NCBI RefSeq assembly: GCF_013085465.1
Contig: NZ_CP049838.1
Coordinates: forward strand, 8,122,001-8,186,000
Reading direction: 5' to 3'
DNA from: Streptomyces asoensis
GTDB taxonomy: Bacteria; Actinomycetota; Actinomycetes; Streptomycetales; Streptomycetaceae
DNA length: 64,000 nt
Below are positions 8,421 through 21,490 of this stretch, piece after piece. The position numbers and the translations under genes were made by a program. The notes under the pieces are model-generated. The model was not told the DNA's origin and searched no databases. It worked only from the letters and a program-made list of their open reading frames with translations. How positions within the stretch are numbered: the first letter of the stretch is position 1; every line of letters begins with the position of its first letter.

Positions 8421-10916
8421 GTGCACGGGAACGACCCCACCACCGGCACCCGCAGAGCAGAGACCCACAGACGACGTCCATCGCTGCGCAGAGCCATCGC
8501 CCTCCTGAGCGGCGCCCTGCTGGCCGGCGCGTCGCTCACCCTCGCCGCACCCGAGGTCGGCGCAGCCGTCGCCGCCCCGCTGGTCGCGGCCGAGGACTTC
8601 CAGCAGGTCACCCTCGCCAAGGGCGAGGCGGAGGTCGGCGAGCCCATGTCGCTCGCCGTGCTGCCCGACCGCTCCGTCCTGCACACCTCACGCGACGGCG
8701 AACTCCGGCTCACCGACGCCGCCGGCAACACGCGACTGGCCGGCAAGCTCGACGTCTACTCCCACGACGAGGAAGGCCTCCAAGGCATCGGGGTGGACCC
8801 GGAGTTCGCGGCCAACCGCTTCATCTACCTCTACTACGCACCGCCGTTGAACACTCCGGCGGGCGACGCCCCCGAGACCGGAACGGCTGCCGACTTCGCT
8901 CCCTTCGACGGGGTCAACCGTCTCTCCCGCTTCGTGCTCGGGACGGACGGGACGCTCGACGTCTCGAGCGAGACGAAGATCCTCGACGTACCCGCCTCAC
9001 GCGGCCTGTGCTGCCACGTCGGCGGCGACATCGACTTCGACGCGGCAGGGAACCTCTACCTGTCCACCGGCGACGACAGCAACCCCTTCCAGTCGGACGG
9101 CTTCACGCCCATCGACGGGCGCGACAACCGCAATCCCGCCTTCGACGCCCGCCGTTCCGCCGGCAACACCAACGACCTGCGCGGCAAGATCCTGCGCATC
9201 AAGGTGAACGCCGATGGCTCGTACGCCGTCCCGGACGGCAACCTGTTCGCGCCCGGCACGGACCGGACACGGCCCGAGATCTACGCGATGGGTTTCCGCA
9301 ACCCGTTCCGCTTCAGCGTCGACAAGGCCACCGGCATCCTCTACGTCGGCGACTACGGCCCCGATGCCGGTGCGGCCGATCCGGCTCGCGGACCGGCCGG
9401 TCAGGTCGAGTTCGCACGTGTCACCGGCCCCGGCAACTTCGGATGGCCGTTCTGCACGGGCGACAATGATCCGTATATCGCATACGATTTCGCGACGGGT
9501 GTATCCGGTGCGCCCTTCGACTGCGCCGCCCCGAAGAACACCTCGCCGCACAACACCGGCCTCACCGACCTGCCCCCGGCCCAACCCGCCTGGATTGCGT
9601 ACAACGGCCCGTCGGTACCCGAGTTCGGTGACGGTTCCGAGTCCCCGATGGGCGGCCCCGTCTACCACTACGACGCCTCGCTCGACTCGCCGGTGAAATT
9701 CCCGGAAGCGTACGACGGGAACTTCTTCGCCGGGGAGTTCGGCCGACGCTGGATCAAGCGCATCGTCAGTGACGCGAACGGCGCCGTGCAGTCGATCAAC
9801 GCCGTCCCGTGGACCGGTACCCAGGTGATGGACATGGCGTTCGGGCCCGACGGGGCGTTGTACGTCCTCGACTACGGCACCGCCTGGTTCGGCGGTGACG
9901 AGCACTCGGGTCTGTACCGCATCGAGAACGCCACCGACGGCCACTCCCCGGTCGCCCAGGCCACAGCCGATCGCACCTCGGGACAGTCCCCTCTGAAGGT
10001 ACGTTTCTCCTCCGCCGGCACGACCGACCAGGACGGCGACGAGCTCACCTACAGCTGGGACTTCGGCGACGGCGGCACCTCGACGGCGGCCGACCCCACG
10101 CACAAGTACAAGAAGAACGGCACGTACACCGCGACCCTGACCGCCGAGGACGGCTCCGGCCGTACCGGCAGCGCGAGCGTGCAGATCGTCGTGGGGAACA
10201 CGGCACCGAAGGTGGTGCTGGAAACGCCGAAGGACGGCCAGTTGTTCAGTTTCGGTGACGCGATCCCGTTCAAGGTGAGGGTCACCGACCCGGAGGACGG
10301 CAGGGCGATCGACTGCTCCAGGGTCGAGGTCACGTTCGTCCTCGGCCACGACAGCCACGGCCACCCGGTGACCTCGGCAAACGGTTGCACCGGCACCCTC
10401 CAGACCAGCGCCGACGGCGGCCACGACGAGGATGCCAACATCTTCGGAGTCCTCGACGCCGAGTACACCGACGGCGGAGGCGGCGGCCAGGCCCCGCTCA
10501 CCTCGCACGACCAGAACGTCCTTCAGCCCCGCCACCGCCAGGCCGAGCATTTCGGTGACTCGTCCGGCGTCACGCTCATCTCCAAGGACGTCGCCCACGG
10601 CGGCAGGACGGTCGGCGACATCGACAACGGTGACTGGATCTCCTTCACGCCGTACGTCCTCGGCAACGCCAAGAAGATCACGGCACGTGTTTCCTCGGGC
10701 GGCGCGGGCGGAACGCTGGAGATCCGCGCCGGCTCGCCGACCGGCACCCTGCTCGGCAAGGCCACCGTCCCGGTGACCGGCGGCTGGGAGACCTTCCAGG
10801 ACGTCAGCGCCGACCTGTCCCGCACCCCGCGCGGCACCACCACGCTCCACCTCGTCTTCAAGGGCGGCTCCGGCGCTCTCTTCGACGTGGACGACTTCAC
10901 CTTCACGACCGGCTGA
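8421..10916 (+). CDS. Secreted PQQ-type sugar dehydrogenase with PKD and CBM6-like domains
   Basis: An 831-residue exported protein. GTG 8421 follows CTGGAGGCATCC. An arginine-rich n-region and hydrophobic stretch (RRAIALLSGALLAGASLTLA) form the signal peptide. Residues about 55-510 resemble the glucose/sorbosone dehydrogenase beta-propeller, with GLQGIGVDPEFAANRFIYLY, RGKILRIKVN, MGFRNPFRFS and VMDMAFGPDGALYVLDYG. A PKD domain follows (YSWDFGDGGTSTAADPTHKY), then a carbohydrate-binding module-like jelly roll at about residues 695-830 (GDIDNGDWISFTPYVLG). It probably oxidises a sugar or glycan end outside the cell. Genes of this type often sit beside ThuA proteins, as here (11 bp downstream). 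Confidence 0.87.
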   Translation: MHGNDPTTGTRRAETHRRRPSLRRAIALLSGALLAGASLTLAAPEVGAAVAAPLVAAEDFQQVTLAKGEAEVGEPMSLAVLPDRSVLHTSRDGELRLTDAAGNTRLAGKLDVYSHDEEGLQGIGVDPEFAANRFIYLYYAPPLNTPAGDAPETGTAADFAPFDGVNRLSRFVLGTDGTLDVSSETKILDVPASRGLCCHVGGDIDFDAAGNLYLSTGDDSNPFQSDGFTPIDGRDNRNPAFDARRSAGNTNDLRGKILRIKVNADGSYAVPDGNLFAPGTDRTRPEIYAMGFRNPFRFSVDKATGILYVGDYGPDAGAADPARGPAGQVEFARVTGPGNFGWPFCTGDNDPYIAYDFATGVSGAPFDCAAPKNTSPHNTGLTDLPPAQPAWIAYNGPSVPEFGDGSESPMGGPVYHYDASLDSPVKFPEAYDGNFFAGEFGRRWIKRIVSDANGAVQSINAVPWTGTQVMDMAFGPDGALYVLDYGTAWFGGDEHSGLYRIENATDGHSPVAQATADRTSGQSPLKVRFSSAGTTDQDGDELTYSWDFGDGGTSTAADPTHKYKKNGTYTATLTAEDGSGRTGSASVQIVVGNTAPKVVLETPKDGQLFSFGDAIPFKVRVTDPEDGRAIDCSRVEVTFVLGHDSHGHPVTSANGCTGTLQTSADGGHDEDANIFGVLDAEYTDGGGGGQAPLTSHDQNVLQPRHRQAEHFGDSSGVTLISKDVAHGGRTVGDIDNGDWISFTPYVLGNAKKITARVSSGGAGGTLEIRAGSPTGTLLGKATVPVTGGWETFQDVSADLSRTPRGTTTLHLVFKGGSGALFDVDDFTFTTG

Positions 10917-10927
10917 GAGGAGGGCAC

Positions 10928-12313
10928 GTGATGCATGCAACCCGCCGACTGGCCACCGTCGTCGTGGGAGCGGCGCTGCTCCTCGGCAGTGTCTCGGGCC
11001 CGGCCGCCTCGCACTCCGGGGACAGCGGGAGCAAGGGCAGCGGAAAGGGAAACAGCGGGAAACGGTTGCTGGTCTTCTCCAAGACGGCCGGTTTCCGGCA
11101 CGACTCGATCCCGGACGGCGTCGCGGCGGTGCGGGAGCTCGGCGCGACGGGCGGCTTCGGAGTCGACGCCACCGAAGACGCGGGCGCGTTCACGCCGGGG
11201 AACCTGCGGCGCTATGACGCCGTCGTCTTCCTGTCGACGACCGGGGATGTCCTGGACGCCGCACAGCAGGCCGCCTTCGAGGGCTACATCCGGCACGGCG
11301 GCGGCTATGTCGGTGTCCACGCGGCGGCCGACACCGAATACGACTGGGAGTTCTACGGCGGCCTCGCCGGCGCCTGGTTCCAGTCGCACCCGGCGATCCA
11401 GCCGGCGACGGTCGACGTCGAGGACCGGGCCCACCCCGCGACCTCGGGACTCGCCGGCACCTGGAACCGCACCGACGAGTGGTACAACTACCGTTCCAAC
11501 CCGCGCGAGCGGGCCCACGTCCTGGCCTCGCTCGACGAGCAGTCGTACACGGGCGGCACCATGAACGGCGACCATCCGATCGCCTGGTGCCAGAAGTATC
11601 AGGGCGGCCGCGCCTTCTACACCGGGGGCGGCCACACGAAGGAGTCCTACGCGGATCCTGCATTCCGTGGACACCTACTGGGCGGCATACTGTATGCGGT
11701 CGCCGATGTCCAGGCCGACTGTCGACCGGAGAACGGATACCGTCCACTCTTCGACGGCACATCCCTGAACGGCTGGCAGCAGGCCGGCCCCGGCTCCTTC
11801 ACCCTCTCCGACGACGGCACGCTGACGTCGACGGGCGGAATGGGTCTGCTCTGGTATGCCGGTCGGAGCTTCGGGGCGTACTCACTGAAGCTCGACTGGA
11901 GGACCACAGCCGCCGGTCCGAGCGACCCCGGCGACGACAACTCCGGTGTGTTCGTGGGCTTCCCGCCGTCGGACGACCCGTGGTCCGCCGTGAACAACGG
12001 CTACGAGATCCAGATCGACGCCACCGACGTCCCCGAGAAGACCACCGGTTCGGTCTACGGCTTCCGGTCCGCCGACCTGAAGAAGCGGGACCGCGCGCTG
12101 AACCCGCCGGGGGAGTGGAACACGTACGAGATCCGGGTGGAGGGCGAACGCCTGCGCGTCTGGCTCAACGGCGTGCAGATCAACGACTTCACCAACACCG
12201 ACCCGGCGCGGAGTCTGCGCGACGGACACCTCGGTCTCCAGAACCACGGAGCCGACGACCAGGTGTCCTTCCGCGACGTCCGGATCAAGGAACTGCCCGG
12301 TCAGGGCGACTGA
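10928..12313 (+). CDS. Secreted ThuA-like / DUF1080 (3-keto-disaccharide hydrolase-like) protein
   Basis: A 461-residue protein. GTG 10928 or the adjacent ATG 10931 serves as start behind GAGAGGAGGG. A signal peptide (LATVVVGAALLLGSVSG) is followed by a short Gly/Ser/Lys linker. Residues about 42-260 are a ThuA/class I glutamine-amidotransferase-like fold (LLVFSKTAGFRHDSIPDG; GGGYVGVHAAADTEYDW). Residues about 268-455 are the DUF1080 concanavalin-like fold (GYRPLFDGTSLNGWQQAG; NNGYEIQIDATD). ThuA proteins are linked to trehalose/disaccharide use, and DUF1080 members cleave 3-keto-glycosides. Beside the secreted dehydrogenase upstream this suggests extracellular oxidation then cleavage of a glycoside. 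Confidence 0.87.
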   Translation: MMHATRRLATVVVGAALLLGSVSGPAASHSGDSGSKGSGKGNSGKRLLVFSKTAGFRHDSIPDGVAAVRELGATGGFGVDATEDAGAFTPGNLRRYDAVVFLSTTGDVLDAAQQAAFEGYIRHGGGYVGVHAAADTEYDWEFYGGLAGAWFQSHPAIQPATVDVEDRAHPATSGLAGTWNRTDEWYNYRSNPRERAHVLASLDEQSYTGGTMNGDHPIAWCQKYQGGRAFYTGGGHTKESYADPAFRGHLLGGILYAVADVQADCRPENGYRPLFDGTSLNGWQQAGPGSFTLSDDGTLTSTGGMGLLWYAGRSFGAYSLKLDWRTTAAGPSDPGDDNSGVFVGFPPSDDPWSAVNNGYEIQIDATDVPEKTTGSVYGFRSADLKKRDRALNPPGEWNTYEIRVEGERLRVWLNGVQINDFTNTDPARSLRDGHLGLQNHGADDQVSFRDVRIKELPGQGD

Positions 12314-12405
12314 ACGGCGGCGGGCGGGGGACGCCGGACCCCCGCCCGCCGTCACCACCCCGATCCATCACCGCGCCGAACTCCCCAGCCCTCTCGGCCC
12401 GTTCG

Positions 12406-12446
12406 TCTTCCTTCCTCCCTCCCTCCCCCCTCCCTCCCTTCCTCCC
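12406..12446 (+). repeat. 41-nt uninterrupted pyrimidine tract
   Basis: Only C and T occur on the + strand for 41 bases, built from CCTCCCT-like steps, in the 174-bp gap before the ebo-type cluster. It ends 42 bases before the inositol-phosphate synthase start. Such a tract could act as an unstructured mRNA leader or Rho-loading site; no role is proven. Confidence 0.7.
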
Positions 12447-12487
12447 GCCTCGTTCTCCGGGGTTCGCGCACGACAAGGAGGCTGCCC

Positions 12488-13702
12488 ATGTCCGCGTCCC
12501 TTTCCCGTCCCCCGCGCGTCGGCGTCTGGCTGATCGGGGCCCGCGGTTCCGTGGCCACCACCGTGGTCGCGGGGTGCGCCGCCGTCACGGCCGGCCTGCA
12601 CCCGCCGACGGGCCTGGTCACCGAGACGCCCGCGTTCGCCGACAGCGGCTTGCCCACCTTGTCCTCCCTCGTCTTCGGCGGACACGACACGACCGACTGC
12701 CCTCTGCCCAAACGCGCTGAGCAACTCGCGGCCGGAGGAGTCCTCCCGGCAGGCCTCCCCGCGGCGGTCGAAGCCGAACTCGCCGCCGCCGACCGGGAGA
12801 TCAGGCCCGGAGGCCCTGTTCCGGGGGACACCCGTAGCGACGAGCGGCTGATCAGCGAGTTCGCCGCCGACCTACGCGACTTCGTACGCCGGTGCGGTCT
12901 CGCGCGTGCGGTGGTGGTGAACGTGGCCTCGACCGAACCGGCGGCGACCGGCTCCGCGCTGCCGCCGAGTTCCCTCTACGCGGCCGCGGCCCTGCGAGCC
13001 GGCTGCCCGTACGTGAACTTCACCCCGTCCACGGGATTGCACCACCCGGGGCTGGCGCCCGTGGCGGAGGCGAGCGGGCTGCCGTACGCCGGCCGGGACG
13101 GCAAGACTGGGCAGACACTGCTGCGCTCCGTCCTGGGGCCGATGTTCGCCCAGCGGGCGCTGGCCGTCCGGGCCTGGTCCGGCACCAACCTCCTGGGCGG
13201 CGGTGACGGAGCGGCCCTGGCCGACCCGGCCGCCGCCGAGGCGAAGAACGCGGGCAAGGAACGCGTCCTCGCCGACACTCTCGGCACCACTCCCGAGGGC
13301 CGGGTCCATATCGACGACGTCCCGGTACTGGGGGACTGGAAGACCGCCTGGGACCACGTCGCCTTCGACGGCTTCCTGGGCACCCGCATGATTCTCCAGA
13401 CCATCTGGCAGGGCTGCGACTCCGCGCTCGCGGCACCCCTCGTCCTCGACCTGGCCCGCCTCGCGGCCCGGGCCCACGAAGCCGGCCTGTCCGGCCCGCT
13501 CAGCGAACTCGCCTTCTTCTTCAAGGACCCCGTGGGCGAAGCGCCGTCGGCCTTGGCGGAGCAGCACGCGCAACTGGAGCGGTTCGCCCGACGGCTGGGG
13601 GGCGGCGGGGGTGTGGGCGGCGAGAGCGCCGAGACCGGCGAACGGGAGACGCCCGGGGGACGGCACGATCGCGCGACGAGGTCAGGCGAGGAGACGGGAT
13701 GA
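12488..13702 (+). CDS. Inositol-3-phosphate synthase-like enzyme, first gene of the ebo-type cluster
   Basis: A 404-residue protein. ATG 12488 has an ideal AAGGAGG at 12475-12481. The Rossmann start RVGVWLIGARGSVATTVVAG, the SGTNLLGGGDGAAL loop, and the motif around KNAGKERVL and WDHVAFDGFLGTRM identify the myo-inositol-phosphate synthase family (NAD-dependent cyclisation of glucose 6-phosphate). The last 35 residues are Gly/Glu-rich and not part of the fold. It overlaps the prenyltransferase start by 4 bases, so it is translationally coupled to an ebo operon. In known ebo operons a 3-dehydroquinate-synthase-like cyclase (EboD) is present; this enzyme probably fills that sugar-cyclase role. 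Confidence 0.87.
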   Translation: MSASLSRPPRVGVWLIGARGSVATTVVAGCAAVTAGLHPPTGLVTETPAFADSGLPTLSSLVFGGHDTTDCPLPKRAEQLAAGGVLPAGLPAAVEAELAAADREIRPGGPVPGDTRSDERLISEFAADLRDFVRRCGLARAVVVNVASTEPAATGSALPPSSLYAAAALRAGCPYVNFTPSTGLHHPGLAPVAEASGLPYAGRDGKTGQTLLRSVLGPMFAQRALAVRAWSGTNLLGGGDGAALADPAAAEAKNAGKERVLADTLGTTPEGRVHIDDVPVLGDWKTAWDHVAFDGFLGTRMILQTIWQGCDSALAAPLVLDLARLAARAHEAGLSGPLSELAFFFKDPVGEAPSALAEQHAQLERFARRLGGGGGVGGESAETGERETPGGRHDRATRSGEETG

Positions 13703-14982
13703 GCGAGGGCGGAGCGGTGCGTGGAGCTGAGGGGCGGGCGGCCGCGGCGGCCACCGTGCCGGACGGGGGGAGGGCGGCGGAGGCCGGCACGTCGGGCGGT
13801 TGTGTGGCTGCGGAGGCCGGTACGTCGGACCGGAGGGTGGCTTCGGAGGCAGGTACGTCGGACCGGAGGGTGGCTTCGGAGGCCGGTACGTCGGACCGGA
13901 GGGTGGCTTCGGAGGCCGGTACGTCGGACCGGAGGATGGCTTCGGAGGCAGGTACGTCGGATGGGCGGGCGGCTGGGGAGACAGGTACGTCGGGAGGGCT
14001 GGCCGATGGGGTGGTCGGCGCCTCGGAGAGGAACCGCGCTCGCGTGCGGGCCTGGGCCGAACTGCTGCGACTGCCCGCCCTGTTCACGGTCCCCGGCGAC
14101 GCGCTGGCGGGCGCCGCCGCGCTCACCGCGCGCCCCGACCACCGGACCCTGCTCGCCATCGGCTCCTCCCTCTGCCTGTACGAGGCCGGCATGGTTCTCA
14201 ACGACTGGGCGGATCGCGCGGAGGACGCCGTCGAACGCCCCCACCGCCCTCTCCCCTCCGGCCGGGTGAGCCCCACCGCCGCCTTCACGGCGGCCTGCGC
14301 CTTCACCGCCGCCGGCCTAGCCCTGGCCACTCGGGCAGGCCGCCCGGCCCTGACGGTCGCGGCTCCGCTCGCGGCCACCGTCTGGTCCTACGACCTGGCC
14401 CTGAAGCACACGCCCGCGGGCCCGTTCGCCATGGCCGCCGCCCGTTGCCTGGATCTCCTCCTCGGCGCCGCGGCCACCGCAGGACGCGCGCGCCCGGCCC
14501 TTCCCTCCGCCGCGCTCCTGGCCACGCACACGCTCGCGGTCACGACCCTGTCCCGCCAGGAAACCCGCGAGGGCACGCCGACGGCAGCCCTGGCAGCTCT
14601 GGCCACGACAGGCGCACTGACCTGGCTGTTGCAGCGTCGACCGACACCCGGCCTGCCAACGAAACGACGGTCACCTGACGGGCAGTTGCACGGTCATCAT
14701 GGGAGGTCAGGGCCAGGGCCAGGATCCCCACACCCCCTGCCCGCGCCGCTGACCGCAGCGCTCGCCGCCACCTACGCCACCACCACGGCCCGCTCCTACC
14801 TGCACGCCTCCCTCAACCCGTCCCCTCCTCTCACCCAACAAGCTGTCGGCGCCGGCATTCGCGGCACCATTCCCCTCCAGGCCGCTCTCATCGCCCGCTC
14901 GGGAGCCACCGCCACCGCGCTGCTCACAGCAGCCCTGGCACCGGTCGCCCGGAGACTCGCGAGGCGGGTGAGCATCACGTGA
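13699..14982 (+). CDS. eboC: UbiA-family prenyltransferase EboC with repeat-rich N-terminus
   Basis: A 427-residue protein in an ATGA overlap with the preceding gene. The membrane domain starts near residue 115 (ARVRAWAELLRLPALFTVPG) and has the UbiA aspartate motif NDWADRAEDAVERPHRPLPS, which binds Mg-diphosphate of the prenyl donor. LDLLLGAAATAGRA takes the place of the second motif. UbiA proteins transfer a prenyl group to an acceptor in the membrane; in ebo clusters EboC is thought to prenylate a small molecule for export. The first 110 residues are unusual: 11-residue repeats (TSDRRVASEAG) encoded by 33-bp units. A later start may be used, but the upstream one is coupled to the previous stop. 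Confidence 0.85.
   Translation: MSEGGAVRGAEGRAAAAATVPDGGRAAEAGTSGGCVAAEAGTSDRRVASEAGTSDRRVASEAGTSDRRVASEAGTSDRRMASEAGTSDGRAAGETGTSGGLADGVVGASERNRARVRAWAELLRLPALFTVPGDALAGAAALTARPDHRTLLAIGSSLCLYEAGMVLNDWADRAEDAVERPHRPLPSGRVSPTAAFTAACAFTAAGLALATRAGRPALTVAAPLAATVWSYDLALKHTPAGPFAMAAARCLDLLLGAAATAGRARPALPSAALLATHTLAVTTLSRQETREGTPTAALAALATTGALTWLLQRRPTPGLPTKRRSPDGQLHGHHGRSGPGPGSPHPLPAPLTAALAATYATTTARSYLHASLNPSPPLTQQAVGAGIRGTIPLQAALIARSGATATALLTAALAPVARRLARRVSIT
13786..14016 (+). repeat. 33-bp in-frame tandem repeat, about 7 copies, in eboC
   Basis: Units start every 33 bp at 13786, 13819, 13852, 13885, 13918, 13951 and 13984. The four central copies (13819-13950) are almost identical and begin GGTACGTCGGACCGGAGG; the outer ones are degenerate. 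Each encodes 11 residues near TSDRRVASEAG. Because the period is a multiple of three, copy-number change would keep the frame. Confidence 0.95.
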
Positions 14983-16082
14983 AGCCCGGACCTACGAGCC
15001 GCGAGAGCGGCCCCAACGAGAAGACCTCGAACGCCATCACCCCGCACCCTCCCTCGCCTTCACTCCCGTCTCCGCCCCCGCCCCCGCGCTCGCTCCCGCT
15101 CCCGCTCCGCTTCGGCTACGGCACGAACGGCCTCGCCGATCTCCGCCTCGACGACGCCCTCGCCCTGCTCGCCGACCTCGGCTACGACGGCGTCGGACTG
15201 ACGCTCGACCACATGCACCTCGACCCGTTCGCCCCGGACCTCGCCGTCCGCATCCGACACATCGCGCACCGACTGGACGCCCTCGGGCTGGACGTCACCG
15301 TCGAGACCGGCGCCCGCTATGTCCTGGACGCGCGCCGCAAGCACGGCCCCTCCCTCCTGGATCCGGAGCCGGACGATCGCGCCCGCCGCGTCGACCTGCT
15401 GCTCCGCGCCGTCCGGATCGCCGGTGATCTCGGTGCGCATGCCGTCCACTGCTTCAGCGGAACCCTCCCGCCAGGCACGGCGGCGGAGACCGCGTGGCAG
15501 CGCCTCGCCGAGACTCTCGCCCCCGTCCTGGACGCCGCCGCGTCCGGCGGCACCCCCCTCGCCATCGAACCCGAACCCGGTCACCTCCTGGCGACTCTCG
15601 CCGACTTCCACCGGCTCCGCCTGGCCCTGGACGGCCCGGCGTCCCTCGGCCTCACTCTCGACATCGGCCACTGCCAGTGCCTCGAGCCGCTCCCGCCCGC
15701 CGACTGCGTACGCGCCGCGGCGCCCTGGCTGCGGCACGTCCAGATCGAGGACATGCGCCGTGATGTCCACGAACACCTTCCCTTCGGGGACGGCGAGATC
15801 GACTTCCCGCCCGTCCTCGCCGCTCTCGCCGACACCGGCTACCGCGGGCTGACAGTGGTTGAACTGCCCCGCCACTCCCACGCCGGCCCCCACTACGCCG
15901 AAGCCTCCCTCCCCTTCCTCCGCCGCGCGGCGGCATCCGCTCAAGTCACCGTCACCGTCACCGACCACGCCGATCCGAAGTCGCCCTCCTCCCCAGTCCC
16001 GAGCCGCCCGTCCCGGGCGGCGAATCTGCCCGTCGCGCCACCTGGCGAGCCCTCCGCCATCCGAGAAGGGAGCACTCCATGA
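14979..16082 (+). CDS. Sugar phosphate isomerase/epimerase-like TIM barrel in the ebo-type cluster
   Basis: A 367-residue protein starting at GTG 14979 in a GTGA overlap with eboC. After about 40 Pro/Ser-rich residues the barrel begins at LRFGYGTNGLADLRLDDALA. Metal-ligand candidates are in LAIEPEPGHLL, GLTLDIGHCQC, RHVQIEDMRRDVHEHLPFGDGEIDF and LTVVELPRHSH, the order expected for xylose-isomerase-like enzymes. It should act on a sugar or cyclitol phosphate intermediate of the cluster. The C-terminal 45 residues are again low-complexity. The 4-base overlaps on both sides (eboC and eboA) make membership of the operon certain; the reaction is not known. Confidence 0.85.
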   Translation: MKPGPTSRESGPNEKTSNAITPHPPSPSLPSPPPPPRSLPLPLRFGYGTNGLADLRLDDALALLADLGYDGVGLTLDHMHLDPFAPDLAVRIRHIAHRLDALGLDVTVETGARYVLDARRKHGPSLLDPEPDDRARRVDLLLRAVRIAGDLGAHAVHCFSGTLPPGTAAETAWQRLAETLAPVLDAAASGGTPLAIEPEPGHLLATLADFHRLRLALDGPASLGLTLDIGHCQCLEPLPPADCVRAAAPWLRHVQIEDMRRDVHEHLPFGDGEIDFPPVLAALADTGYRGLTVVELPRHSHAGPHYAEASLPFLRRAAASAQVTVTVTDHADPKSPSSPVPSRPSRAANLPVAPPGEPSAIREGSTP

Positions 16083-16906
16083 CCCACCCTCACGCCGCCC
16101 TGGCGACCCCGGAAGCGGAACACGCGGGCACCACCCTGGCCCGCACTCCTCTCGACGCCCTGCACAGCCACCTCGACACCCACCTCGAGGCGACCGCCCG
16201 CGTCTGGTTCCGCCGGGCTCTCGACGAGGCCGCCGCCCACCCGGGCACTCATGGGCCCATCTCGGTGTGGGAGTTGCGCCTCGCCGAGGCCGGTCGCCGT
16301 TGCGGCAGCCGTTACGCCGACGCCGCCCGCGTGCTCATCCTCCGCGCGGCCCGCGCCGACCCGGCGTCCCTGGCCCGCGTCTATTTCCAGGGCACCGCCG
16401 AAGAACGTCGAGCGGTCCTGCACGCGCTGCCCCACCTCGTGTCCGGGCCCGACGCCCTCCCGCTGGTCGAGGACGCCCTGCGCACCCATGACACCCGGCT
16501 CCTCGCGGCCGCCGTCGGCCCCTACGCCGCCCGTCACCTCGATGCGCACGCCTGGCGCCACGCCGTCCTGAAATGCCTCTTCGCCGGAGTGCCCGTCGAC
16601 GAGGTGGCGGGCCTCGAACAGCGCGCCCGCGCCGACGCCGAACTCGCCCGCATGCTCGTCGACTACGCCACCGAACGCACCGCCGCGGGCCGCCCCGTCC
16701 CGCGCGATCTGCAACGCGTCCTGACGCTGACCGATCCGGCGGCTCTGACCGATCCGGCGGCTCTGACCGATCCGACGGCTCTGACCGATCCGGCGGCTCT
16801 GACCGCAGCCGACCCGGACGCACCCACCCCACACCTCCACCGCGCGGACCCCCCTGGCGCGGGCAGTCCCCGCCGCCCGGCCCACCCCCACGGCAAGGAG
16901 TCCTGA
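16079..16906 (+). CDS. eboA: EboA-domain protein
   Basis: A 275-residue, mostly helical protein in an ATGA overlap with the TIM-barrel gene. The region from about residue 55 to 215 shows the EboA pattern, especially HAVLKCLFAGVPVDEVAGL followed by ADAELARMLVDYATERTAAG. EboA has no assigned reaction; in ebo operons it is one of the core genes linked to trafficking or export of a metabolite (shown for scytonemin precursors in cyanobacteria). The C-terminal tail holds four hexapeptide repeats (LTDPAA type) encoded by 18-bp units at 16727-16798, plus a Pro-rich end. The stop shares a base with the next start (TGATG). Confidence 0.83.
   Translation: MTHPHAALATPEAEHAGTTLARTPLDALHSHLDTHLEATARVWFRRALDEAAAHPGTHGPISVWELRLAEAGRRCGSRYADAARVLILRAARADPASLARVYFQGTAEERRAVLHALPHLVSGPDALPLVEDALRTHDTRLLAAAVGPYAARHLDAHAWRHAVLKCLFAGVPVDEVAGLEQRARADAELARMLVDYATERTAAGRPVPRDLQRVLTLTDPAALTDPAALTDPTALTDPAALTAADPDAPTPHLHRADPPGAGSPRRPAHPHGKES
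16727..16798 (+). repeat. 18-bp in-frame tandem repeat, 4 copies, in eboA
   Basis: CTGACCGATCCGGCGGCT repeats at 16727, 16745, 16763 (one base different) and 16781, encoding LTDPAA units near the C-terminus of EboA. A fifth partial unit follows. Confidence 0.95.
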
Positions 16907-17754
16907 TGCGCATCTTCGATCCCCACATCCACATGACCTCGCGCACCACCGACGACTACGAGGCGATGCACGCGGCCGGTGTCCGCGCCGTCGTCGAGCC
17001 GTCCTTCTGGCTGGGACAGCCGCGCACCTCGACCGCCTCCTTCCTCGACTACTTCGACTCCCTTCTCGGCTGGGAACCGTTCCGGGCCGCGCAGTACGGC
17101 ATCGCCCATCACTGCGCGCTCGCCCTCAACCCCAAGGAGGCCAACGACCCGCGCTGCGCCGCCGTCCTGGAGGAGCTGCCGCGCTATCTCGTCAAGGACC
17201 ACGTCGTGGCCGTCGGCGAGATCGGCTACGACTCGATGACCCCCGCCGAGGACACCGCCCTGGCCGCCCAGCTCCAGCTGGCCGCCGACCATGCCCTGCC
17301 GGCCCTCGTGCACACCCCGCACCGCGACAAGCTCGCCGGACTGCGCCGCACCCTCGACGTCGTCCGTGAATCCGCCGTGCCGCCGGACCGGGTCCTGCTC
17401 GACCACCTCAACGAGACCACCGTGAAGGAGGCGAAGGACGCCGACTGCTGGCTGGGCTTCTCCGTCTACCCCGACACCAAGATGGACGAGACCCGCATGA
17501 TCGGGATCCTCCGCCTGTACGGGCCGGAGAAGGTCCTGGTGAACAGCGCCGCGGACTGGGGCAGGAGCGACCCGCTCAAGACCCGAAGGGTCGCCGACCT
17601 GATGCTCTCGGAGGGCTTCACCGAGGACGACGTCGATCTCGTCCTGTGGCGCAACCCCGTCGCCTTCTACGGCCTCAGTGGCCGCCTCGCCCTTGAGGTG
17701 ACCGCCCCCGACGCCACCCACGAGGGCAATTCCATCCTGCGCGGAGGGGAGTGA
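16906..17754 (+). CDS. eboB: TatD-family metal-dependent hydrolase EboB
   Basis: A 282-residue protein. ATG 16906 is chosen because it follows GGCAAGGAGTCCTG and starts the amidohydrolase strand MRIFDPHIHMTSRTTDDY; upstream codons lie inside eboA. DPHIHM gives the HxH metal pair. Further ligands are probably E of VVAVGEIGYDSM, H of PALVHTPHRDK, H of LLDHLNET and D of VNSAADWGRSDP. The fold and motifs match the TatD-like hydrolase of ebo operons. The substrate is unknown. It overlaps eboA by one base and is 3 bp before eboE. Confidence 0.87.
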   Translation: MRIFDPHIHMTSRTTDDYEAMHAAGVRAVVEPSFWLGQPRTSTASFLDYFDSLLGWEPFRAAQYGIAHHCALALNPKEANDPRCAAVLEELPRYLVKDHVVAVGEIGYDSMTPAEDTALAAQLQLAADHALPALVHTPHRDKLAGLRRTLDVVRESAVPPDRVLLDHLNETTVKEAKDADCWLGFSVYPDTKMDETRMIGILRLYGPEKVLVNSAADWGRSDPLKTRRVADLMLSEGFTEDDVDLVLWRNPVAFYGLSGRLALEVTAPDATHEGNSILRGGE

Positions 17755-17757
17755 GCG

Positions 17758-18927
17758 ATGCGCTTCCGTCACCCCGACGGCACCACCGTCCACCTCGCCT
17801 ACTGCACCAACGTGCACCCCGCCGAGACCCTCGACGGCGTCCTCGCCCAACTCCGCGACCACTGCGAACCCGTCCGGCGCCGCCTCGGCCGTGACCGGCT
17901 CGGTGTCGGGCTGTGGCTCGCCAGGGATGCCGCCCGGGCCCTGGACACCGACCCGTCGGCCCTGCGCGGCCTGCGCACCGCACTCGACCGGCGTGGCCTC
18001 GAGGTCGTCACCCTCAATGGTTTCCCGTACGAGGGTTTCGGCGCCGAAGAGGTCAAGTACCGTGTGTACAAGCCGGATTGGGCCGACGCTGAACGCCTCG
18101 AGCACACCACCGCACTGGCCCGTGTCCTCGCCGGACTCCTCCCCGACGACGTCACCGAAGGCACCATCTCCACCCTCCCGCTCGGCTGGCGCACCGCCTG
18201 GAACGATGCACGGGCCGCGACGGCCCACTCCGCCCTGCGCACCCTCGCCGAGCGCCTGGACGCGCTGGAGGAGCTGACCGGCCGCTCCGTCCGGGTCGGT
18301 CTGGAACCGGAACCGGGCTGCATCGTCGAGACCACCGCCGACGCCCTCGCCCCGCTCACGGCCGTCGGCCACCCCCGGATCGGTGTCTGCGTCGACACCT
18401 GCCATCTCGCCACCTCCTTCGAAGACCCGCACACCGCGCTGGACGCGCTCGCCGAAGCCCGCGTCCCCGTCGTCAAATCCCAGCTGTCAGCCGCCCTGCA
18501 CGCAGAGCACCCCCGTCTCCCCGCCGTCCGCGAAGTCCTCACCGCGTTCGACGAACCGCGCTTCCTGCACCAGACCCGCACCCTCACCGCCACCGGCCTG
18601 CACGGCACCGACGACCTCGGCGAGGCCCTCGTCGGCACCGCTCTGCCCGACACCGGACCCTGGCGCGCACACTTCCACGTCCCGCTGCACGCGGCCCCCG
18701 CCGCGCCCCTCACCTCCACGCTCCCGGTACTCCAAGCCGCGCTGACCCGCCTGGTCGGCGGTCCGCACCCGCTGACCAGGCACCTCGAGGTCGAGACCTA
18801 CACCTGGCAGGCCCTCCCGCCCGAGCTGCGGCCCCGCGCCCGAGCCCAGCTCGCCGACGGCATCGCCGCCGAACTCGCCCTGGCACGCGACCTCTTGACC
18901 GACCTCGGCCTCAAGGAGCTCCCATGA
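17758..18927 (+). CDS. eboE: Metabolite traffic protein EboE (TIM barrel)
   Basis: A 389-residue protein starting at ATG 17758. It has the characteristic EboE opening VHLAYCTNVHPAETLDGVL and the segment VVTLNGFPYEGFGAEEVKYR followed by VYKPDWADAER. GLEPEPGCIVETT and GVCVDTCHLATSFED are likely metal-binding strands of a xylose-isomerase-like barrel. EboE is the most diagnostic marker of ebo clusters. It presumably isomerises or binds a sugar-like part of the transported metabolite in the cytoplasm. The ATGA overlap with eboF shows coupled translation. Confidence 0.9.
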   Translation: MRFRHPDGTTVHLAYCTNVHPAETLDGVLAQLRDHCEPVRRRLGRDRLGVGLWLARDAARALDTDPSALRGLRTALDRRGLEVVTLNGFPYEGFGAEEVKYRVYKPDWADAERLEHTTALARVLAGLLPDDVTEGTISTLPLGWRTAWNDARAATAHSALRTLAERLDALEELTGRSVRVGLEPEPGCIVETTADALAPLTAVGHPRIGVCVDTCHLATSFEDPHTALDALAEARVPVVKSQLSAALHAEHPRLPAVREVLTAFDEPRFLHQTRTLTATGLHGTDDLGEALVGTALPDTGPWRAHFHVPLHAAPAAPLTSTLPVLQAALTRLVGGPHPLTRHLEVETYTWQALPPELRPRARAQLADGIAAELALARDLLTDLGLKELP

Positions 18928-20372
18928 GCAGCGCGGCATCGGCCGGCGCCGGGCCCCAGGACCGGCCCGGAGCCCACGCCCACGTCCCTGCCCCCAAGGT
19001 GCCTGTTCCCCTCCTCGTCCTCGACGTCGTCGGTCTCACCCCCCGTCTGCTCGATCACATGCCCCATCTCAAGACCCTCGCCCAGGCGGGCTCCCTGGCA
19101 CCGCTCGGGACCGTCCTGCCGGCCGTCACCTGCGCCGCGCAGTCCACCTTCCTCACCGGCACGCTCCCGGCGGAGCACGGCATCGTCGGCAACGGCTGGT
19201 ACTTCCGCGAGCTCGGCGACGTACTGCTGTGGCGGCAGCACAACGGTCTCGTCGCGGGCGACAAGCTGTGGGACGCCGCCCGGCGGGCGTACCCCGGCTA
19301 CACGGTCGCCAACATCTGCTGGTGGTACGCCATGGGCGCCGACACCGACTACACCGTCACCCCCCGTCCGATCTACTACTCCGACGGCCGCAAGGAACCC
19401 GACTGCTACACCCGGCCCCCGGCCCTGCACGACGAACTCACCGAGAAGCTCGGCACCTTCCCCCTCTTCCACTTCTGGGGACCGGGCGCCGACCTGGTCT
19501 CCAGCCGCTGGATCATCGACGCGACCCGCCACATCCTGCGCACCCGTAACCCCGACCTGGCCCTTTGCTACCTCCCTCACCTCGACTACGACCTCCAGCG
19601 TTTCGGCCCCGACGACCCGCGCTCCCTCCGGGCGGCCGCCGTCCTGGACGCTGCCATGGCGCCCCTCCTGGCCGACGCCCGGACGCAGGGCCGTACCGTC
19701 GTCGCGCTGTCCGAGTACGGCATCACCCGGGTGAGCAGGCCCGTCGACATCAACCGTGCCCTGCGCCGCGCGGGCCTGCTCGAGGTGCACACCCAGGACG
19801 GCATGGAGTACCTCGACCCGATGGCGTCCCGTGCCTTCGCGGTCGCTGATCACCAGCTCGCCCACGTCTATGTACGCCGTCCCGAGGACCTGGAGGTCGC
19901 CCGGGCCGCGCTCACCGGACTGCCGGGCATCGAGCTGATCCTCGACGACGAGGGGAAAAAGGCGCACCACCTGGACCACCCGCGCTCCGGCGAACTCGTC
20001 GCCGTGGCGGAGCCGGACGCCTGGTTCACGTACTACTACTGGCTCGACGACGCCCGCGCGCCCGACTTCGCACGACTCGTCGAGATCCACCGCAAACCCG
20101 GCTACGACCCGGTCGAGCTGTTCATGGATCCGCTCGACCCCTATGTGAAGGTCAAGGCGGCCACCGCCCTGGCGCGCAAGAAGCTCGGCCTGCGCTACCG
20201 CATGGCGGTGGTGCCCCTCGATCCGTCACCTATTCGCGGCAGCCACGGCCGCCTTCCCGCGAGCGACGACGACGGTCCGCTCCTCATCTGCTCCACCCCC
20301 CGTTCGCTCGGCGACCGCGTCGCGGCCACCGACGTGAAAGCACTGCTGCTCCAACTGGCCGGTCTGTGCTGA
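18924..20372 (+). CDS. eboF: Alkaline phosphatase/nucleotide pyrophosphatase-like protein EboF
   Basis: A 482-residue protein in an ATGA overlap with eboE. It belongs to the type I phosphodiesterase/nucleotide pyrophosphatase superfamily: an early strand LLVLDVVGLTPRLLDHMPHL, the nucleophile region LGTVLPAVTCAAQSTFLTGT (Thr nucleophile expected in VTCAAQST) and PAEHGIVGNGWYFRE. Later metal ligands are likely in LPHLDYDLQRFGPDDP, VALSEYGITRV and FAVADHQLAHVY. No signal peptide is evident, so it should act in the cytoplasm, removing or hydrolysing a phosphate group of the cluster product. It matches the phosphatase gene that closes known ebo operons. Confidence 0.87.
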   Translation: MSSAASAGAGPQDRPGAHAHVPAPKVPVPLLVLDVVGLTPRLLDHMPHLKTLAQAGSLAPLGTVLPAVTCAAQSTFLTGTLPAEHGIVGNGWYFRELGDVLLWRQHNGLVAGDKLWDAARRAYPGYTVANICWWYAMGADTDYTVTPRPIYYSDGRKEPDCYTRPPALHDELTEKLGTFPLFHFWGPGADLVSSRWIIDATRHILRTRNPDLALCYLPHLDYDLQRFGPDDPRSLRAAAVLDAAMAPLLADARTQGRTVVALSEYGITRVSRPVDINRALRRAGLLEVHTQDGMEYLDPMASRAFAVADHQLAHVYVRRPEDLEVARAALTGLPGIELILDDEGKKAHHLDHPRSGELVAVAEPDAWFTYYYWLDDARAPDFARLVEIHRKPGYDPVELFMDPLDPYVKVKAATALARKKLGLRYRMAVVPLDPSPIRGSHGRLPASDDDGPLLICSTPRSLGDRVAATDVKALLLQLAGLC

Positions 20373-20443
20373 CTGGTTGCCGACTGGTCACAAGTGAAGC
20401 ACTCACCACTGACAACGCCCTCCGATCCCGAGGAGTTCCAGAC

Positions 20444-21490
20444 ATGAGCCGCATCTCCGACATCGACCCCGAACTCACCCACCGCCTGACCAGACGAGGC
20501 ATGCTCGGCGTCGCCGCGGGAGCCACCGCGGCCGCACTGCTGGGGGCCGCCGCCTCGCCCGCCGGCGCGGCACCCGCCACCGGCACCGACGCCTCCGCCA
20601 CCGGCCGCGGCCGTCCCGTCCTGCCCCCCGGCCGGCTCGGCATCCAGCTCTACAGCCTGCGCGACAAGGTCTCCACGCTGGGCTTCGCCGCCGTCTTCGC
20701 CGAGTTGAAGAAGTACGGGTACGACGAGGTCGAGTTCGCCGGCTACACCCAGGGCTCCGCGGGCCCCATCACCCTTGCCCAGCTCAAGCGGCTGGCACGC
20801 AACCACGGCCTGACGCCGATCGGCAGCCACGTCGGCTACTACGCCAGTGACCCGAACGCCTACACCTTCGCCCAGAACCTCACCAAGGTCCTCGACGACG
20901 CCCAGGCCCTCGGCCTCAAGCACATCGGCACCGCCTCCGGCCCGTTCCGCTACGGCTCCACCGTCGACGCGTGGAAGCGCGCGGCCGAGGAGTTCAACAC
21001 GTACGGAGCGGCGGCGCGGGCCCGCGGCATGAAGTTCTACCAGCACAACCACTCCGACGAGTTCGGCTTCGCGACCGACAACCCCAAGGTCCGCCTCTAC
21101 GACGTACTGCTCGCCGAGACCGACCCCGACCTGGTGTTCCTGGAGATGGACATCTTCTGGGCGTACGCCGGCCAGTTCCGTTTCTCGAAGCGGGCCGACG
21201 GTACGGCCGCGCCCTTCGAGCCGCTGGACTACGTACTGAGGCAGCCGCATCGCTATCCGCTCTTCCACGTGAAGGACGGCGTCAGTGACCCCTCGAACGA
21301 GTTCGGGTACCGGATGACCGACGTCGGGGACGGCGACATCGACTACCAGCGGTTCATCTCCGCCGTCACCCGGCTGCGAGGTGAGCGGCCGGCCCACCAC
21401 TGGCAGGCCGAGCACGACAACCCGGTCGAGTCGTTCGCCTTCGCACGGAAGTCGAGTGCGCACCTGCACTCGTTGCGCGAGAAATGCTGA
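20444..21490 (+). CDS. Tat-exported sugar isomerase/epimerase-like TIM barrel
   Basis: A 348-residue protein. ATG 20444 is chosen because of the upstream CCGAGGAG and the signal peptide it opens: LTRRGMLGVAAGATAAALLG, a Tat signal with twin arginine, then an Ala-X-Ala-like site. The mature barrel (LGIQLYSLRDKVSTLGFAAV) has probable metal ligands in KFYQHNHSDEFG, VFLEMDIFWAYAGQ, LFHVKDGVSD and the DGDIDY segment. It resembles exported sugar isomerase/epimerases that pair with Gfo/Idh/MocA enzymes. It is 71 bp after eboF and is the last gene before a strong terminator, so it probably belongs to the same transcription unit. Confidence 0.87.
   Translation: MSRISDIDPELTHRLTRRGMLGVAAGATAAALLGAAASPAGAAPATGTDASATGRGRPVLPPGRLGIQLYSLRDKVSTLGFAAVFAELKKYGYDEVEFAGYTQGSAGPITLAQLKRLARNHGLTPIGSHVGYYASDPNAYTFAQNLTKVLDDAQALGLKHIGTASGPFRYGSTVDAWKRAAEEFNTYGAAARARGMKFYQHNHSDEFGFATDNPKVRLYDVLLAETDPDLVFLEMDIFWAYAGQFRFSKRADGTAAPFEPLDYVLRQPHRYPLFHVKDGVSDPSNEFGYRMTDVGDGDIDYQRFISAVTRLRGERPAHHWQAEHDNPVESFAFARKSSAHLHSLREKC

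Follow-up and report, generated by a model that had tools for sequence, protein, structure and literature searches.

In the genome of Streptomyces asoensis we detected an operon of the ebo type that encodes a myo-inositol-phosphate synthase (MIPS) and lacks a gene for EboD. It lies in a window of 64,000 nucleotides (the whole stretch of DNA analysed in our study, positions 8,122,001-8,186,000 of the single 10.04-Mb contig), in which seven genes arranged head to tail (12488-20372 in window coordinates) encode MIPS, a prenyltransferase of the UbiA family, a TIM-barrel protein, EboA, EboB, EboE and EboF. The presence of an ebo-type operon with MIPS and without EboD is confirmed, and across genomes the occurrence of MIPS in the place of EboD is a well-supported regularity. 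One and the same type of operon contains either of two unrelated ring-forming enzymes, and the simplest reading of this alternation is a shared role of both in a single cyclitol-forming step. MIPS together with the TIM barrel probably replaces EboD as the cyclitol-forming step of one prenyl-cyclitol pathway.

As claimed by the original prediction, which was made from the letters of this DNA, seven of the eight genes considered overlap or nearly touch. Overlaps of 4 bases were found for MIPS/UbiA, UbiA/TIM, TIM/EboA and EboE/EboF; EboA and EboB overlap by 1 base, and a gap of 3 bases separates EboB from EboE. The inositol-phosphate synthase proposed for the first position was likewise recovered, with both of its domain families above cut-off. 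An identical gene order was observed in many of the fetched Streptomyces loci, among the matches listed, and all seven core genes occur once more in the same genome near 9.57 Mb, at a distance of about 1.44 Mb and with a MIPS of 74% identity, indicating that the cluster is not due to chance. Upstream of this second copy, which the original prediction does not mention, lies a divergent regulator-like gene, apparently of the SARP type.

EboE scored 423.5 bits against NF035939 (cut-off 250) and EboA 161.6 bits against NF035938 (cut-off 50), both profiles thereby matching the proteins named in the original prediction above the curated cut-offs. EboA missed the cut-off of the narrower family model NF035937 (65.3 bits, cut-off 320). 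The predicted model of EboA is all-helical (pLDDT, the predicted local distance difference test, 94); in a fold search against the PDB no match fell below E 0.23, and naming the protein by its fold was dropped. For EboB and EboF only broad Pfam families were matched, no dedicated EboB or EboF model being reached, and both show a collinear, near end-to-end alignment with annotated ebo neighbours (TatD genes and phosphodiesterases). The 3' part of eboA contains an 18-bp tandem repeat (4.4 copies, 16727-16805) outside the match to the EboA model.

EboD was sought with the model NF004852 (cut-off 333), on which two EboDs from annotated ebo operons score 571 and 531 bits. The best of five 3-dehydroquinate-synthase-like proteins of S. 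asoensis reached 199.5 bits. None of 199 Streptomyces genomes contained an EboD over the cut-off, 11 of them showing weaker matches of 209-224 bits. An EboD hidden elsewhere was therefore rejected for this genome and for the 199 Streptomyces genomes, and the predicted absence of EboD from the cluster stands. Operons without eboD are also recorded by the authors of the family (Yurchenko et al. 2016, PMC5133447), and for this reason we take the operon as an ebo variant.

Whole-genome searches covered Actinomycetota, other phyla being represented solely by plasmid records. Among 396 Actinomycetota genomes, EboE was found in 19 (18 over the cut-off) and a MIPS of the window type in 17 (E 1.2e-63 or better; the next match had 2.1e-55 at 40% identity). 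All of these 17 genomes also possess EboE, located 4.3-5.3 kb from MIPS in each, and no window-type MIPS was found in those of the 396 genomes that lack EboE. EboD exceeded its cut-off in a single genome (G381; G and L numbers denote genomes and loci, respectively), which has EboE and no window-type MIPS. The ebo locus of G279 (L059) contains neither MIPS nor TIM, its EboE is in two pieces and below the cut-off, its UbiA is in pieces, and the locus looks broken. On another contig of the same genome (L176:3249-5336) we detected a free-standing, directly abutting MIPS-TIM pair, the MIPS of which belongs to a different subfamily.

Of 199 Streptomyces genomes, 138 contain EboE (135 over the cut-off) and 135 a strong MIPS match; both occur together in 133 genomes, EboE only in 5, MIPS only in 2 and neither in 59. 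The MIPS-type ebo operon is thus common to many Streptomyces and not peculiar to this strain. Three of the EboE-only genomes (G444, G537, G583) are fragmented or incomplete, the other two (G408, G460) carrying MIPS-free clusters on contigs of sufficient length. MIPS only was recorded for G526 and G480, the locus of G526 stopping at the contig edge. Co-occurrence of MIPS with the ebo genes, which the original prediction had suggested as a check in actinobacterial genomes, amounts to 17 of 19 EboE genomes in the Actinomycetota set and 133 of 138 in the Streptomyces set.

To these counts the gene neighbourhoods can be added. We classed 136 loci, of which 100 have MIPS near EboE, 8 have EboD, 12 have neither and 16 lie at contig edges (the latter counted neither way); L001-L004, L006-L010, L012-L017 and L021-L040 were left out as duplicates or single-gene loci. 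Most MIPS loci stem from a list of best matches that is nearly all Streptomyces (80 loci kept), 20 Streptomyces neighbourhoods were fetched as odd cases and not as a random sample, and the 100 MIPS loci include three pairs with identical EboE (L051/L158, L074/L163, L081/L173). MIPS and EboE are on the same strand in 99 of the 100 MIPS loci, with a median separation of 4.8 kb. EboD was matched in none of the MIPS loci, and MIPS in none of the EboD loci. A TIM barrel scoring above 100 bits is present in 99 of the MIPS loci (76 bits in the remaining one, L112) and in none of the eight EboD loci. All seven core genes are found in 92 of the 100 MIPS loci; UbiA is missing from seven, and one (Gemmatirosa) has no recognizable EboA. 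The original prediction, which had named the inositol-phosphate synthase alone as occupying the place of EboD, has to be corrected accordingly: MIPS and the TIM barrel jointly mark the replacement. Of the two extra TIM barrels described there, the first belongs to the core and tracks MIPS, whereas the Tat-exported one (Tat, twin-arginine translocation) is only a frequent flank.

The best solved relative of MIPS is the enzyme of Archaeoglobus fulgidus (1u1i, 5.3e-58). An alignment of 20 sequences, among them that of Gemmatirosa, shows no variation at residues N234, K253, K257, K285, D311 and K346, which are equivalent to N255, K274, K278, K306, D332 and K367 of the A. fulgidus enzyme. N255, K278 and K367 are mutated in solved chains of the latter, and all three are conserved in the ebo MIPS; the other invariant lysine and aspartate positions we take to be catalytic. 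From these active-site residues MIPS is predicted to convert glucose 6-phosphate to inositol 1-phosphate. A related solved enzyme (6k96, 4e-11 to MIPS) makes a five-membered cyclitol phosphate. For the core TIM barrel the predicted model (pLDDT 94) resembles most closely SCO6571 and sugar 3-epimerases among the solved folds, and also a 3-keto-glucoside 4-epimerase; naming its reaction by fold was rejected, as many sugar epimerases match about equally.

We rejected the MIPS as a copy of the mycothiol enzyme INO1 (33 bits on the INO1 model, cut-off 638). The mycothiol INO1 of S. asoensis is a separate gene and the third MIPS homologue of the genome (737 bits, 28% identical to MIPS over the matched part). 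That the genome has its own INO1, and that clusters free of MIPS retain the other genes, would fit a MIPS that merely boosts the supply of inositol for phosphatidylinositol, mycothiol or an osmolyte and hitch-hikes with the ebo genes, the EboD step having been lost. We consider this quite unlikely, since MIPS of this type is tied to EboE in each of the 17 Actinomycetota genomes possessing it, lies on the EboE strand in all but one of the MIPS loci, overlaps the next gene in the window, and since G279 retains the MIPS-TIM pair even away from ebo genes.

The prenyltransferase reached 390.7 bits on NF045897 ("SCO3242 family", cut-off 260), the match starting at residue 118, and 124.8 bits on the EboC model (cut-off 250), so that the SCO3242 family model was reached instead of EboC. 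An annotated prenyltransferase from an Azospirillum ebo operon likewise remained below the EboC cut-off (89.1 bits). Each of the two families was the second match of the other among the proteins scanned, and in hhalign the SCO3242-type and EboC-type sets aligned over nearly their whole length (99.8%). The motifs NDxxDxxxD and T-x-x-(S/A)-(R/K)-x-E were found in the window protein. In the fetched loci the latter follows further on in 99 of 110 prenyltransferases with the first motif, and it is present in 5 of 8 prenyltransferases of EboD loci; D-x-x-[GKD]-D was matched at this place in 1 of the 110. The nearest solved relative, although distant, is digeranylgeranylglyceryl phosphate synthase (6m31, E 4e-4), and the best matches outside the ebo families include geranylgeranylglycerol-phosphate prenyltransferases. 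Since these use a polar phosphate acceptor, we count them as fitting the prenylation of a cyclitol. An array of 33-bp tandem repeats (13778-14027; about 6.5 copies, then diverged ones) lies within the UbiA gene, in its 5' part as annotated, and represents either an unusual repeated N-terminal stretch or a mis-called start; because of this array, the gene may in fact begin near 14000.

Outside the core, the operon of the window is flanked by three further genes (Table 1). The two upstream proteins apparently are secreted, as read from their signal peptides, and the downstream TIM barrel is predicted to be exported by its twin-arginine signal; its gene starts about 65 bases 3' of EboF, the alternative start overlapping EboF. 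Within 9 kb of EboE, a match to the GSDH-type sugar dehydrogenase is present in 73 of the 100 MIPS loci; ThuA matches were found near EboE in 68 and Tat-exported TIM matches in 75 (47 of them with at least 60% identity, 28 with less than 40%). These three are frequent flanks and not core genes; the recurrence of the two upstream genes goes beyond the original prediction. The Tat-exported TIM barrel was rejected as a core gene as it has no match in 25 MIPS loci including the second copy of this genome, near which neither GSDH nor ThuA was matched either.

Table 1. Genes of the ebo-type operon and its flanks in the S. asoensis window
Feature	Position	Strand	Supporting match
MIPS, archaeal-like, first core gene	12488..13702	+	PF07994 + PF01658 above cut-off
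UbiA-family prenyltransferase, SCO3242 family (EboC counterpart)	13699..14982	+	NF045897
Xylose-isomerase-like TIM barrel accompanying MIPS (core)	14979..16082	+	PF01261, 147.8 bits
EboA	16079..16906	+	NF035938
EboB, TatD-like metal-dependent hydrolase	16906..17754	+	PF01026, 46.7 bits; start codon read
EboE, TIM barrel	17758..18927	+	NF035939
EboF, type I phosphodiesterase / nucleotide pyrophosphatase family	18924..20372	+	PF01663, 228.4 bits
Tat-exported TIM barrel, flank, not core	20438..21490 (alternative start 20366)	+	PF01261, 61 bits
GSDH-type sugar dehydrogenase with PKD and CBM6 domains, upstream flank	8421..10916	+	PF07995, PF18911, PF03422
ThuA + 3-keto-disaccharide hydrolase protein, upstream flank	10928..12313	+	PF06283, 270 bits; PF06439, 158 bits

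The frequency of these flanks, together with the resemblance of the core TIM model to sugar 3-epimerases and the 3-keto-glucoside 4-epimerase, could speak for the whole region 8421-21490 being a system for sugar or cyclitol catabolism, in which an intracellular pathway linked to inositol is supplied by secreted oxidases and keto-sugar hydrolases. However, all three flanks are missing from 20 of the 100 MIPS loci, several of which lie beside antibiotic-type clusters, and MIPS plus a prenyltransferase suit synthesis better than breakdown. We regard a catabolic function as very unlikely.

Several observations weigh against MIPS and the TIM barrel acting as a stand-in for EboD. Eight places in Streptomyces (L042, L067, L068, L077, L078, L079, L084, L085) contain UbiA-TIM-EboA-EboB-EboE-EboF and neither MIPS nor EboD. 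In six of the eight genomes concerned an ebo-type MIPS is encoded elsewhere, but G408 and G460 have none anywhere in the genome, indicating that a dedicated MIPS is dispensable or replaced by the housekeeping INO1. For the MIPS-free clusters, INO1 or the MIPS encoded elsewhere may supply the inositol phosphate. A further Streptomyces locus, L110, keeps GSDH, ThuA and EboA-EboF and has no MIPS, no UbiA and a TIM match of 47 bits, due to a deletion or a misassembly. The seven MIPS loci without a UbiA hit represent six places (L090, L097, L112, L125, L154, and L074/L163 as one); a second search of them with other UbiA queries yielded nothing, or a 39-residue piece in L074/L163, which weakens a strict need for cluster-encoded prenylation. 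The second motif of UbiA enzymes is normally an Asp pair, and the departure of the motif described above from this pair makes the UbiA chemistry uncertain. Finally, the EboD comparison set comprises only eight loci, and the loci are unevenly sampled.

Upstream of five of the MIPS-free clusters (L042, 13912-16808; L067, L078, L079, L084) there is a gene for a carotenoid-desaturase-like flavin adenine dinucleotide (FAD) enzyme, in four of the five together with a phosphatase of the inositol-monophosphatase superfamily. In a scan of L042 the FAD enzyme matched best to CrtO and the phosphatase to histidinol-phosphatase, neither being over the cut-off. Besides the eight MIPS-free clusters, the loci with neither cyclase comprise L059 of G279, L110, L083 (which contains stretches of N and shows the cluster doubled) and L020. 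The latter shows a lone EboE (L020:11995-13173) inside a type II polyketide synthase (PKS) cluster on a plasmid record, the other core genes not being in the fetched stretch.

In an EboE tree (120 EboE rows, thinned at 80% identity to 41) the eight EboD loci and Gemmatirosa, a member of the Gemmatimonadota having MIPS and TIM together with EboB, EboE, EboF and UbiA, fall on one side of a branch with 100/100 support. The prenyltransferase of Gemmatirosa scored 172 bits on the SCO3242 model and 136 bits on the EboC model, below both cut-offs, and its MIPS falls between the ebo set and other MIPS in the MIPS tree. On the EboE tree the MIPS label has to change 6 times, some of these changes possibly being gene losses, and the broken frame of L059 forms a very long branch. 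The placement of Gemmatirosa and the MIPS subfamily of G279 suggest that MIPS and TIM joined the ebo genes more than once; losses and transfers could be an alternative account of the EboE tree.

Gemmatirosa also bears on the possibility that shared ebo proteins were recruited to a different pathway, so that MIPS-type and EboD-type operons make different products and the one enzyme is no stand-in for the other. The TIM barrel accompanies only MIPS or MIPS-relic clusters and none of the EboD loci, which argues that the step is not replaced one for one, and the SCO3242-type prenyltransferase remains below the EboC cut-off. Moreover, MIPS gives a phosphorylated six-carbon polyol, while EboD was proposed to use sedoheptulose 7-phosphate (PMC5133447). 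On the other side, the MIPS-TIM pair of Gemmatirosa occurs together with an EboE that groups with the EboD loci and with a prenyltransferase standing between the SCO3242 and EboC families, and none of the 108 loci with one cyclase holds both. We consider a separate pathway unlikely.

Under the replacement of EboD by MIPS and TIM, the operon would be the actinobacterial form of ebo, with an archaeal-like MIPS and the TIM barrel instead of EboD, a sugar-phosphate cyclase unrelated to them. MIPS would form inositol 1-phosphate from glucose 6-phosphate and the TIM barrel may rearrange the ring, perhaps held by EboA, the gene of which it overlaps. The membrane prenyltransferase (SCO3242/EboC) would attach a prenyl chain, and EboB, EboE and EboF might trim or dephosphorylate the intermediates. 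The putative product would be a prenylated cyclitol acting at the membrane, like in the published EboD model, and would probably help other metabolites to leave the cytoplasm and to be matured outside it.

An isoprenoid-cyclitol product via EboD was already proposed by Yurchenko et al. (2016, PMC5133447), so that a prenylated cyclitol, presented in the original prediction as a new product class, is not new as such; the route via inositol would be. The word "inositol" is absent from the text of PMC5133447, and our literature searches, out of reach of most subscription papers, yielded no publication linking MIPS to ebo among the matches listed. The ebo operon of eustigmatophyte plastids, Bacteroidetes and cyanobacteria described in that paper shares EboA, EboB, EboE, EboF, UbiA and the logic of cyclitol plus prenyl chain with the operon studied here, which in contrast has no EboD, contains MIPS and an additional TIM barrel and shows the order MIPS-UbiA-TIM-A-B-E-F. 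The same source notes actinobacterial EboA proteins fused to a xylose-isomerase-like domain, to which the adjacency of TIM and EboA in our operon fits. For Ubi-297, the gene of which is part of an ebo-type set, preferential farnesylation is reported (PMC9235831). For S. coelicolor, SCO3243 and SCO3242 are listed with the calcium-dependent antibiotic (CDA) cluster as MIPS and transferase, respectively (PMC3610822). This pair, which includes the namesake of the prenyltransferase family, likewise consists of neighbouring tags annotated as MIPS and a transferase. The nearest solved relatives by sequence, 1u1i and 6m31, come from an archaeal lipid context that is absent here.

We infer the metabolite-export role of the ebo operon from work on scytonemin in Nostoc and from the naming used by NCBI. 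In ebo mutants of Nostoc the scytonemin monomer is retained in the cytoplasm (Klicki 2018, PMC6282210). The Pseudomonas EDB cluster contains a full ebo cluster (PMC6282210), and a 2022 review reports indole products from E. coli carrying EDB. On three Streptomyces plasmids (L018, L171, L172) the cassette is accompanied by a gene of the ScyD/ScyE family, a multicopper oxidase, an aromatic prenyltransferase and cytochrome bd genes; two of these records also have a SARP-family regulator and one a type III PKS. The Nostoc operon is located near genes maturing an aromatic metabolite outside the cytoplasm, and these three copies adjoin genes that may have a similar role, but the other scytonemin genes are not annotated on the plasmids. 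This parallel to scytonemin export is suggestive and no proof. In L172 (20469-20792) the gene for a 2Fe-2S protein carries the label of a tetracycline-resistance gene (100% identity), apparently by mistake. Furthermore, the cassette was found beside nonribosomal peptide synthetase genes on Streptomyces plasmid records and, likewise on such records, next to a type II PKS cluster that also includes oxidoreductase, amidase, glutamine-synthetase-like and purB genes and that we take to be kinamycin-like.

A more far-reaching idea, doubtful at present, is that in Streptomyces and relatives an inositol-headed isoprenoid lipid serves as a membrane carrier handing out antibiotics or pigments, organisms with EboD using the same kind of carrier with a different cyclitol. 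Such a lipid would be built by the archaeal-like MIPS and a prenyltransferase related to an archaeal ether-lipid enzyme.

The ebo operon was named in 2016, and its MIPS variant points to a ring-shaped sugar alcohol as a part of the product. If MIPS and TIM indeed replace EboD, the hypothesis on EboD would be tied to an enzyme class of known chemistry, the conversion of glucose 6-phosphate to inositol phosphate, and a system present in 138 of 199 Streptomyces genomes, sometimes beside antibiotic-type clusters, may affect the maturation or release of natural products.

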